From an uncultured Bacteroidota bacterium (GTDB taxonomy: Bacteria > Bacteroidota > Bacteroidia > Bacteroidales > P3): DNA of 64,000 bases. The notes under the pieces are model-generated. The model saw nothing but the letters and a program-made list of their open reading frames with translations. It had not been told where the DNA came from and searched no databases. The stretch spans positions 1 to 64,000 of the forward strand of contig CACYPU010000012.1 of NCBI GenBank assembly GCA_902776365.1. The letters are read 5' to 3'. The translations under genes and the position numbers were made by a program. Below, one piece after another: positions 48,954 to 56,672 of this stretch (position 1 is the first letter of the stretch; each line of letters begins with the position of its first letter).

Positions 48954-49785
48954 ATGAGAAAAACATTGCTATTGCTGACGATTGCGACGCTGGTCTTCGC
49001 GTCGTGCGGAAAGGAAGAGGTCCGTCCGGAACCCATTCCCGACGGTAACCTGGTGCTCAACTGCGAGAAACCGGCCTATCTGAGTGACGGCGACACGGTG
49101 GCGCTTATCTCTCCGGCCTATTACACCCCGATGGAGAACGTCGAGGCTACCGCCAACGTGCTGCGGTCGTGGGGTCTGGTGCCCGTCATCGGCCCCAATG
49201 TGGGTAAGATAGTCGACGGGAAGTATGCCGGTACCGTCGACGAGCGCGCCAGCGACATCCTCTGGGCATTCAATGACCCGAGCATCAAGGCCATTATCTG
49301 CAACCGTGGCGGCTACGGCACCATACAGCTTATCGACCACATTCCGCTTGCTGAACTGTCCGCCTCGCCCAAATGGCTCGTCGGCTTCAGCGACATCAGT
49401 ACCCTGCACGGCCTGCTGAGCCGCGCCGGAGTGATGAGCGTCCACGGCACCATGAGCTCCTATCTGGCAAATGGCGGCACCGCCGAGACCAGCACCATGA
49501 TGCGCGACCTGCTGAATGGGGCAGGTCCCTTGCTATCACCTGCCCGCCCACGCCCAGAACATCACCGGAGTGGCAAGCGGCGTGCTGGTGGGCGGCAACC
49601 TCTGCACTTTCGCTCCCAACCTGGGCTCGCAGGCCGACGCCACGATGGGGCAGGACCTGATCCTCTTTGTCGAGGAGGTCGGCGAGTCGATGCACAACAT
49701 CGACCGTCAGATGCGCATCCTGCAGATGAACGGCGTGCTTGACCGCTGCAAGGGAATCATACTGGGCGAGTTAAAAAGTTTTTGA
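48954..49785 (+). pseudogene. S66 LD-carboxypeptidase-like lipoprotein, frameshifted and truncated
   Basis: The first frame (48954 to about 49530) gives a lipoprotein signal (LVFASC, Cys18) and an S66 domain: DTVALISPAYYTP, NRGGYGTIQLID and the catalytic Ser in GFSDISTLHG. Near 49517-49535 the reading frame changes. The second frame continues to 49785 with the family segments GVLVGGNLCTFAPNLGSQ, LFVEEVGE and RCKGIILGEL, then stops. About 100 C-terminal residues that normally carry the catalytic His are missing. So the gene has a frameshift and a truncation. S66 enzymes cut the L,D-bond in recycled murein peptides; this copy should be inactive. Confidence 0.82.
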
Positions 49786-52710: not shown

Positions 52711-53187
52711 TTATTTGTACTCGGCGAGGATGCCGGGGACGAGGTCGGGGGTGAGGCGGCCGTAGACCTTGTCACCGATCATGGCGACGGGGGCCAGACC
52801 GCAGGCACCGACGCAACGGAGGGTGTTCAGGCTGAACTTGCCGTCGGGGGTGCACTTGCCGACCTGGATGCCCAGGTTACGCTGGAAGGCATCGAGGACC
52901 TTCTCGGCGCCACGGACGTAGCAGGCGGTACCCAGGCAGATGTCGATGGGGTGCTCGCCCTTGGGCTCCATGGTGAAGAAGCTGTAGAAGGAGACGATAC
53001 CATAGACTTTGGCCACGGGCATGTTCAACTCGTGGGCGATGACTTCCTGGACCTCGGCGGGCAGGTAGCCGAACTTGCCCTGCACCTGGTGGAGGACATT
53101 GATGACCTCGCCGCTCTTATTACCAAAGCTCTTGCAGACGTCTTTGATAATGTTGATTTTCTCTTCGGAAATTTTTATATTTGCCAT
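52711..53187 (-). CDS. hndA: NuoE-like [2Fe-2S] subunit of NAD-linked hydrogenase
   Basis: A 158-residue NuoE-family protein with a thioredoxin-like fold and all four cluster cysteines: Cys84 and Cys89 in CLGTAC, Cys125 and Cys129 in CVGAC. It passes electrons between the flavin subunit and the hydrogenase in HndABCD-type complexes. Length is normal for this role. It is the last gene of the leftward operon, 18 bases after hydA. It is intact even though hydA is broken. Confidence 0.92.
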   Translation of the reverse strand: MANIKISEEKINIIKDVCKSFGNKSGEVINVLHQVQGKFGYLPAEVQEVIAHELNMPVAKVYGIVSFYSFFTMEPKGEHPIDICLGTACYVRGAEKVLDAFQRNLGIQVGKCTPDGKFSLNTLRCVGACGLAPVAMIGDKVYGRLTPDLVPGILAEYK

Positions 53188-53205: not shown

Positions 53206-54837
53206 TTATTTTGTGGTCTCGACTTTGTCGCTCTTGTCGAAGTAGTGGGTGTGGAGCTGCTCGTGGCTGAGGTGGCCGCAGGGTTCACCGTAGTACTCCT
53301 TGTAGATGGCGATGATGTCGGGGTTCTCGTGGCTCTTGCGGATGGGCTTGCCAGCGTCCTCGCGGTAGATGGCGTCCATTAGCCGTTGGGGTTGCCGGCG
53401 CGGACTTCTTCCATGAGCTTGCGGGCGTTGTTGAGGCCGTAGCAGATAGCGATCTTGACGGGCAGGCCGTCGAAGTCGACGGTGGCCTCGCGGATGCTCT
53501 CGCCGAAGATACCGCGGCACTCCTCGAAGTCGATCTTCGGGAGGGTCTTGCCGGTGTGGACCTCGTAGGCGGTACGGAGAGCAGCCTCCATCACGCCGCC
53601 GGTAGCACCGAAGATGACGGCGGCACCGGTGGACTGGCCGAGCGGGCTGTCGAAGTCCTCCTCAGGCATGCTGTTGAGGTCGATGTTGCTCTGCTTGAGC
53701 ATGTGGGCCAGCTCACGGGTGGTGAGGCTGAAGTTGACATCCTGGTCGGTACCATTGCCGAGTTCGGGACGAGCCACCTCGCTCTTCTTGGCCAAGCAGG
53801 GCATGATGGAGACGCAGACGACGTCTTCGCGCTTCACGCCAATCTTCGGGGCGAAGTAGTTCTTGGTGACGGCGCCGAACATGCCCTGAGGCGACTTGGC
53901 GGTCGAGGGATATTCGAGCAGGTCGTTGACGTTCTTGTCGCCAGCGAGGAGAGCTTTCACACGGTGGAGGAGCTCGGTGCCTTCCTCCATGATGGTGAGG
54001 TCGGCGCTCCAGTCGGTATCGAAGACATAGTCGAAGCCGAGGCGGCGGAGGGCAGCGGCCATCTTGCCGGTGACGATGGTGCCGGGTTCCATGCCGAACT
54101 CTTCGCCGAGGGCGACGCGGACGGCGGGAGCGGTCTGGACGACGACCTTCTTGGTCGGGTCGGCGAGGGCGCGACGCACGTCGTTGATGTTGTCGACGAG
54201 GGTGAGGGCACCCACGGGGCACACCTGGACGCACTGGCCGCAGTTGACGCAGGAGCTGTCGCCGAGTTTCTGCTCGAAGGCGGGAGCCACCACCGAGGGG
54301 AAGCCACGGTTGACGCCGCTGAGGGCGCCTACGCTCTGGAACTTGTTGCACATGGTCTCGCAGCGGCGGCAGTAGACGCACTTGTCCATGTCGCGGTAGA
54401 CGCTGAGGGTAGTGTCTTTCTCATAGTGGCTCTGCTCGCCTTTGAAGGGAATCTCGCGGATACCCATCTTGGCGGCGAGGGCCTGCAGTTCGCAGTCGCC
54501 GCTCTTCTCGCACTGGAGGCAGTCGTTCGGGTGGTCGCTGAGGATCAGCTCGAGGACGGTCTTGCGGGCGTTGAGGGCGCGGGGCGAAGCGGTGAGGACC
54601 TCCATGCCTTCCACGCAGTCGGTGGCGCAGGCGGGAGCCAGATTGCGGCGGGGCTTGCCGTTGAAGTCCTTGGTCACCTCGACCATGCAGACGCGGCATC
54701 CGCCAGGTTTGTTTCATTCCGTCGAGCTCGAAGTAGCAGAGCGTCGGGATATCGATACCGGCCATGCGGGCAGCTTTCAGAATGGTGGTGCCTTCGGGGA
54801 CCTGGATCGCTTTGTTATCTATAGTGACATTAATCAT
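53206..54837 (-). pseudogene. hydA: [FeFe]-hydrogenase catalytic subunit HydA/HndD, disrupted
   Basis: The gene is read in three frames. Frame 1 (54837 to about 54715) starts a 2Fe-2S ferredoxin domain (MINVTIDNKAIQVPEGTTIL, TLCYFELDG). Frame 2 (about 54710 to 53379) carries NKPGGCRVCMVEV, ferredoxin clusters (CVYCRRCETMC, CVNCGQCVQVCPVG) and most of the H domain, including the L2 motif MPCLAKKSEVARPEL. Frame 3 (53381 to 53206) is the C-terminus (MDAIYREDAGKPIRKSHENPDI...LHTHYFD). The L1 motif (TSCCPxW) is missing in frame: the sequence runs from AGDKNV straight to NDLLEYPSTAKSPQ. The L3 motif (CPGGCxxGGGQP) is missing at the frame 2/3 join, which leaves GNPNG then LMDAIY. Without L1 and L3 no H-cluster can bind. 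Confidence 0.9.
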
Positions 54838-54857: not shown

Positions 54858-56672
54858 TTATTTAATCGAGATGGCACCAAACTTACAATTCTGGTAGCAG
54901 GCACCGCACTTGACACATTTCTCTTGACCGATGACCATCGAAGCCAGCTTGTGGCCAGGGGCAATGTAGTCGGTACGGGTGATGGTTTCGGCGGGGCAGT
55001 TCTTGGCGCACTTTCCGCAACCGATGCACTTCTCGGGGTCGATGACATACTGCATGAGTTTCTTGCAGACGCCAGCGCGGCACTTCTTGTCGACGACGTG
55101 CTCCACATATTCGTCCCAGAAGTTGTCGAGGGTGGAGAGCACGGGGTTCGGCGAGGTCTGGCCGAGGCCGCAGAGGGCGCTGTCCTTGATGACGGCGGCC
55201 AGGTTGCGGAGGGCGTAGAGGTCGTCCATCGTGCCGTTGCCGTTGGTGATCTTCTCGAGGAGTTCGCAGAGGCGCTTGTTACCGATGCGGCAGGGGCTGC
55301 ACTTACCGCAGCTCTCCTCGCAGGTGAACTCCAGATAGAACTTGGCGATAGCAGGCATGCAAGAGGTTTCGTCCATGACGACCATACCGCCGGAGCCCAT
55401 CATCGAGCCGGCAGCCACGAGGCTGTCGTAGTCGATCTCGGTGTCGAGGTGCTTGGCAGTGAGGCAGCCGCCGGAAGGACCGCCGGTCTGAACGGCCTTG
55501 AATTCCTTGCCATCCTTGATACCGCCACCGATCTCGTAGATGATCTCACGCAGGGTGATGCCCATGGGAACCTCGATCAGACCCACATTGTTGATCTGGC
55601 CGGCGAGGGCGAACACCTTGGTTCCGGGCGACTTCTCGGTACCGATGGTGCGGAACCAGTCGGCGCCCTTGGTGATGATGATGGGGATGTTGGCGAAGGT
55701 CTCGACGTTGTTGACGTTCGAGGGCTTGTCCATGTAGCCGCGCACAGCGGGGAACGGGGGCTTCAGGGTGGGCTCGCCGCGCTGGCCTTCCATGGAGTGG
55801 ATCAGAGCGGTCTCCTCGCCGCAGACGAAGGCGCCGGCGCCGTAGCGGAGCTCGATATCGAAGTTGAAGCCGCTGCCGAGGATGTCCTCACCGAGGAGGC
55901 CGTACTCGCGGGCCTGGTTGATGGCGATTTTCAGACGCTCGATGGCCAGAGGGTACTCGGCACGGATGTACACGAGGCCCTTGGTGGCACCGATGGCGTA
56001 GCCGCCGATGGCCATAGCCTCGACGATGCTGTTGGGGTCACCCTCGAGGATGGAACGATCCATGAAGGCACCGGGGTCGCCCTCGTCGGCGTTGCAGATG
56101 ATGTACTTCTGGTCAGCCTGGTTCTTGGCGCAGAGACCCCATTTGACACCGGTGGGGAAGCCGGCGCCGCCACGGCCGCGGAGGCCGCTCTTGGTAATCT
56201 CGTCGATAACCTGCTGCGGGGTCATCTCGGTCAAGCACTTGGCCAGAGCCTCGTAACCGCCACGGGAGATGCTCTCCTCGATGTTCTCGGGATCCACAAA
56301 GCCGCAGTTGCGCAGGGCGATACGGATCTGTTTGCGGTAGAAGTCCATGTGCTTCGAATCGCTGACGTGCTCCTTGTTCTCGGGGTTGGTGTAGAGCAGC
56401 TCGGGCACCTTACGGCCTTTGATGATGTGCTCGTTGACGATGCGTTCGGCATCCTCGGGTTTCACCTGGGTGTAGAAGGTGTTGTCGGGCATGATCTTCA
56501 CGATGGGGCCCTTCTCGCAGAAGCCGAAGCAGCCGGTCTTGATGACCTGCACCTCGTCGGCGAGACCCTTCTCGGCGAGAATATTCTTGAAGTTCTCGAT
56601 GATCTGGAGACTGTTGCTGGATTTGCATCCGGTACCGCCGCAGATCAGAATATGCATTTTGTATTTTGCCAT
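54858..56672 (-). CDS. hndC: NuoF-like NADH-binding subunit of hydrogenase
   Basis: A 604-residue protein. N-terminal 2Fe-2S thioredoxin-like domain (HILICGGTGCKSSN, GCFGFCEKGP), then the NuoF core with GRGGAGFPTGVKWG (FMN/NADH loop), ICNADEGDPGAFMDRS, GAGAFVCGEETALI and the N3 cluster CGKCSPCRIG, then two C-terminal [4Fe-4S] motifs (CIGCGKCAKNCPA, CVKCGACYQNC). It oxidises NADH or reduces NAD(P)+ in electron-bifurcating hydrogenases. It is complete, 20 bases upstream of the broken hydA. Confidence 0.95.
   Translation of the reverse strand: MAKYKMHILICGGTGCKSSNSLQIIENFKNILAEKGLADEVQVIKTGCFGFCEKGPIVKIMPDNTFYTQVKPEDAERIVNEHIIKGRKVPELLYTNPENKEHVSDSKHMDFYRKQIRIALRNCGFVDPENIEESISRGGYEALAKCLTEMTPQQVIDEITKSGLRGRGGAGFPTGVKWGLCAKNQADQKYIICNADEGDPGAFMDRSILEGDPNSIVEAMAIGGYAIGATKGLVYIRAEYPLAIERLKIAINQAREYGLLGEDILGSGFNFDIELRYGAGAFVCGEETALIHSMEGQRGEPTLKPPFPAVRGYMDKPSNVNNVETFANIPIIITKGADWFRTIGTEKSPGTKVFALAGQINNVGLIEVPMGITLREIIYEIGGGIKDGKEFKAVQTGGPSGGCLTAKHLDTEIDYDSLVAAGSMMGSGGMVVMDETSCMPAIAKFYLEFTCEESCGKCSPCRIGNKRLCELLEKITNGNGTMDDLYALRNLAAVIKDSALCGLGQTSPNPVLSTLDNFWDEYVEHVVDKKCRAGVCKKLMQYVIDPEKCIGCGKCAKNCPAETITRTDYIAPGHKLASMVIGQEKCVKCGACYQNCKFGAISIK

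Follow-up and report, generated by a model that had tools for sequence, protein, structure and literature searches.

Missing H-cluster motifs in an [FeFe] hydrogenase gene, very probably a product of local genome-assembly errors

Background

How does a hydrogenase gene come to lack the motifs of its catalytic cluster while its partner genes stay whole? The question is raised by hydA in the window, by which we mean the whole stretch of 64,000 nucleotides analysed here. Read on the minus strand, the genes hndB, hndC, hydA and hndA follow one another between 57167 and 52711, and we take them to form an HndABCD-like operon. An earlier note on this DNA described a targeted loss of the H-cluster motifs from hydA beside intact partner subunits, and offered three explanations: recent decay, conversion of the product to an NADH-linked electron carrier without hydrogen chemistry, or an assembly fault. 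The frames of all three partner subunits are open, with Pfam matches for hndA and hndC and none for hndB:

52711 to 53187, minus strand: hndA-like subunit (thioredoxin-like 2Fe-2S), intact; PF01257 full length
54858 to 56672, minus strand: hndC-like NADH-binding subunit, intact; PF01512 and PF10589
56772 to 57167, minus strand: hndB-like small subunit, open frame; named from gene order

Group A [FeFe] hydrogenases carry the motifs L1 (TSCCPxW), L2 (MPCxxKxxE) and L3 (ExMxCxxGCxxGGGQP-like). The L2 pattern is matched in the window's hydA; the L1 and L3 patterns are not.

Results

Three gaps in hydA

The window's hydA is split among three pieces that occupy two frames, and no single open frame scores above a curated NCBIfam cut-off. 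The middle piece scores 404.6 against a cut-off of 405.95 for TIGR02512, and 597.2 against a cut-off of 765 bits for NF040763. The pieces, with the retained motif, are as follows:

54716 to 54837, minus strand: N-terminal piece, with the beginning of the 2Fe-2S domain (PF13510, residues 1-36 only), ending at the 8-bp gap
53379 to 54686, minus strand: middle piece, a 435-aa frame from an internal ATG, covering most of the H domain as well as the Fe-S domains (PF02906, PF10588, Fer4)
53778 to 53804, minus strand: L2 motif, MPCLAKKSE, present
53206 to 53379, minus strand: C-terminal piece, iron hydrogenase small-subunit domain (PF02256, 82 bits), sharing its frame with the N-terminal piece

Past the 8-bp gap the N-terminal frame runs on as nonsense as far as 54421. 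The cysteine motifs of the Fe-S domains are present at 54219-54629, and PF02256 is found at the C-terminus, though separate from the middle piece.

We aligned the DNA of this hydA with 22 loci of the same genus using MAFFT, a comparison with close relatives that the earlier note had called for. The alignment confirmed all three suspected gaps (8, 60 and 94 bp, following 54715, 53926 and 53380 respectively), which total 162 bp and leave the middle piece in a different frame from the other two:

54712 to 54716, minus strand: gap 1, 8 bp absent relative to 22 of 22 relatives, frame-breaking, with a 3-bp microhomology
53925 to 53927, minus strand: gap 2, 60 bp absent from the L1 motif region, in frame, without microhomology
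53379 to 53381, minus strand: gap 3, 94 bp absent (L3 motif region), frame-breaking, no microhomology

In the relatives the 60-bp stretch is the L1 region, FTSCCPAWVTFYEKNF; its 20 codons agree with the in-frame loss of about 20 residues estimated beforehand. The 94 bp that they have at gap 3 make up the L3 region, EVMACPGGCIGGAGQP, whose 31.3 codons likewise fit the out-of-frame loss of about 30 residues. The gap of 8 bp, immediately upstream of CRVC, is the small third frameshift that the earlier note had placed there, and the L2 motif that it reported as retained is indeed present. Gap 3 creates a TAA at NPNG, at which the middle piece stops, and an ATG overlaps this TAA (TAATG).

No further indels were found in hydA of the ten closest relatives (L006-L015, 85-93% DNA identity), and L016-L027 have length differences in common (3, 6 or 18 bp) at other points of the gene. 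At the third gap L026 has 66 bases, not 94, because of its own run of N there.

Hydrogen-metabolism genes in the same assembly

A search for the maturases, proposed in the earlier note, found hydE, hydF and hydG in the window's assembly, all above their cut-offs. HydF at first seemed shortened, but the same split family match occurs in 6 of 7 relatives tested (it is continuous in 1 of 7) and the frames are all open, so that we regard the split as natural. Contig C1 also encodes a group B [FeFe] hydrogenase that is intact and scores 532.6 bits on TIGR04105, above the cut-off of 450. With the three maturases and the group B enzyme predicted, the organism still has what hydrogen metabolism requires, and we would most simply expect its HydA to be intact.

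The region G000:C1:277825-281875 (outside the window; L002, L003) holds the group B gene and, near it, another gene coding for an [FeFe]-like protein, 583 aa long, in which a putative PAS-like stretch was seen by eye.

The earlier note had also suggested looking for a second, intact hydA. When the hydA DNA of a relative was compared with the assembly, the 40 of 82 candidates scored gave the window locus and two matches of 38-39 bp only; among them there was thus neither a second copy nor a displaced piece. That the missing segments are absent elsewhere in the assembly, within those 40 candidates, counts against an assembly error.

Indels in essential genes of the same assembly

As a control, selected stretches of G000, the genome to which the window belongs, were compared with the matching ones of up to seven relatives. 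An event was defined as an indel of at least 4 bp that had equal length relative to at least three other genomes and was contradicted by none that aligned through it. Because the stretches were picked partly for conserved genes, the resulting rate is not a genome-wide one. We found seven events in 40,950 covered bases of G000, three of which are those in hydA. The other four lie in rpoC, rplL, rplE and rpsP, which are essential genes and whose identities NCBIfam confirms:

G000:C18:10867: rpoC, 23 bp absent relative to five relatives, frame-breaking; split into two frames (NCBIfam)
G000:C18:19048: rplL, 147 bp including the start codon absent relative to three relatives; the L7/L12 match begins at model position 47 (NCBIfam)
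G000:C9:126823: rplE, 42 bp absent at the 3' end relative to five relatives
G000:C12:111141: rpsP, 4 extra bp relative to five relatives, near a contig end

Among the 40 of 41 candidates scored, no copy of the 147-bp rplL segment turned up at another place in G000.

The seven other genomes combined had three events (+6 bp, +5 bp and -79 bp) in 200,800 covered bases. With the hnd operon left out, G000 has four events in 36,493 bases against three in 200,800 (one-sided binomial p 0.013), and for deletions alone the counts are three against one (p 0.013). Two of the G000 stretches, the 20-kb ones with hydF and with groEL, had no events and GroEL is intact, which counts against assembly error as the cause of the hydA gaps.

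The lesions in these four genes are best read as assembly faults, because RNA polymerase above all is unbreakable in a living cell. The same assembly thus contains, in genes that must be whole, indels as clean as those in hydA and equally unshared, and for this reason we read the hydA gaps as assembly errors too. The comparison speaks against the targeted loss that the earlier note described: judged by it, the three gaps are very probably local genome-assembly errors within what is otherwise a normal operon for an NADH-dependent [FeFe] hydrogenase. Like its closest relatives, the organism most likely has a normal, unbroken catalytic subunit HydA.

A further broken gene lies in the window at 48957-49785 on the plus strand, where an LD-carboxypeptidase gene (PF02016, PF17676) has one extra base at 49515. 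Its C-terminal part diverges past about 49775, and the open frames there in L047 and L048 are 372 and 378 aa long.

Breaks in the hydA genes of other genomes

We examined 119 other genomes of the genus with a query that started past the 8-bp site and therefore bears on gaps 2 and 3 only. Counted among the matches listed, 77 genomes have a full-length single frame, 12 a broken or partial hydA, 26 paralogue-level matches only and four no match. Nine of the 12 are cut by a contig end and two (G066 and G035) by runs of N; in the last, G130, the DNA match is continuous, with neither an N-run nor a contig end, and the protein is split. In one genome the contig end coincides with the right-hand boundary of gap 2. 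The breaks at contig ends lend weak support to assembly error. Against it counts that the breaks in other genomes are scattered along the gene and not confined to L1 and L3.

Scaffold N-runs in the hnd operons of relatives lie at 2201-2255 and 2816-2836 in L026 (the G035 locus) and at 366-424 in L037. The flanks of the L037 run repeat the same approximately 14 bases, as in an unmerged overlap.

Shared words at the gap sites

The DNA in which the gaps lie is highly conserved across related species. If the gaps are assembly errors, they probably arose where assembly graphs branch, at conserved stretches in which several species share the same short words; the flanks would then have been joined and the bridging segment dropped. 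The H-cluster motifs would seem targeted because little else in the operon is as well conserved at the DNA level. When 31-base words common to 80 other records were counted, the two highest peaks were L1 and the start of L3, and the maximum percentiles were 96.7 at L1, 95.5 at L3 and 89.9 at the 8-bp site. With 41-mers the effect is weak (77.7 and 53.7 percentile of maximum at L1 and L3), which counts against the error reading, and with 21-mers the two highest peaks fall outside the gaps. Conserved DNA coincides with the functional motif, so shared words alone do not separate error from loss.

Natural loss of hydA

Could the three deletions instead have inactivated hydA in this lineage recently, leaving the operon now decaying? 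Two of the gaps break the frame, so that no full-length product is left; gap 1 has its 3-bp microhomology; and an intact group B hydrogenase would remain to the cell. A gene dead for long enough to collect three deletions should, however, show more sequence change than the retained hydA does. Mean dN/dS of the retained part is 0.133 over nine pairs with close relatives, as against 0.126 over the 36 pairs among those nine, and in its substitution pattern we see no indication of relaxed selection. Four residues are unique to the window, the third highest number among ten sequences, and one of them (V for C) directly follows L2. These residues count against an assembly error. The nine relatives have 0 to 9 such residues each. 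With ordinary dN/dS, intact partner subunits and like lesions in essential genes, we consider natural pseudogenisation very unlikely.

Conversion to a hydrogen-free function

We looked for homologues with these gaps among named loci, taking the best 80 of at least 592 confirmed, the majority of them ruminant-gut records titled Bacteroidales or Bacteroidetes. Every one of these 80 has an open frame with at least three of the four motifs, and 75 have all four in one open frame; the other five (L064, L065, L066, L068 and L072) each have a single frame, 592-597 aa long, that fails to match one of the motif patterns, L3 in four and L2 in one. The L1 pattern, which in the window falls inside the 60-bp gap, is matched in 80 of the 80, and the L3 pattern, inside the 94-bp gap, in 76. 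A family of homologues that share the gaps yet keep an open frame, which the earlier note had named as evidence against its own reading, is not represented in these best 80 of at least 592 loci, and the listed matches of the 119 genomes include none with gaps 2 and 3 joined as in the window.

That HydA became an NADH-linked electron carrier or adaptor through loss of L1 and L3 is therefore scarcely credible: the Fe-S domains and partner subunits are retained and the L1 gap taken singly is in frame, but the gene lies in three pieces and two frames with its N-terminal 2Fe-2S domain cut by gap 1, and no homologue shares the gaps. We give hardly any more credence to a complex that would lack both H-cluster binding loops and serve, as separate Fe-S polypeptides, as a hydrogen-free module passing electrons from NADH to ferredoxin; the middle and C-terminal pieces meet in the TAATG stop-start overlap.

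Discussion

Among the three explanations in the earlier note, the evidence favours the assembly fault, with essential genes nicked in the same way and N-runs over L1 and L3 in G035; conversion finds no support, and the ordinary dN/dS speaks against decay. Short conserved active-site motifs can be sites where assemblies break, and an apparent exact loss of catalytic motifs in one assembly can arise from the assembly itself. The essential genes of the same assembly provide a cheap test of such claims.

Comparison with known systems

The best NCBIfam family, for the window's piece and for an intact relative alike, is NF040763, NADH-dependent [FeFe] hydrogenase, group A6. The window shares the gene order hndB-hndC-hydA-hndA with the HndABCD-like operons of this group, and the group A6 hydA of relatives reaches up to 98% amino-acid identity to the window over residues 1-254. 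Where it differs from the family is in lacking L1 and L3 and in lying in three pieces and two frames. On the family's own model the window's middle piece (597 bits) and a relative's scanned 500-aa part (725 bits) both fall below the cut-off of 765. Another group of [FeFe] hydrogenases, group A3, classed as bifurcating, is reported in PMC6776011 to be more widespread among rumen genera than any other hydrogenases.

The closest parallel to the damage is in G035, whose orthologous hydA is interrupted at L1 by a run of 55 N and at L3 by one of 21, so that both motifs are affected as in the window; in G035 the letter N marks these scaffold gaps, whereas in the window the flanks are directly joined. 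More broadly, uncurated local assembly errors are reported in PMC7111523 to leave incorrect protein-coding genes in databases, and the errors in metagenome-assembled genomes described there resemble those that we propose, being faults at joins that corrupt protein-coding genes. In that paper errors are detected by missing read support, whereas those in the window were recognised by comparison with relatives.
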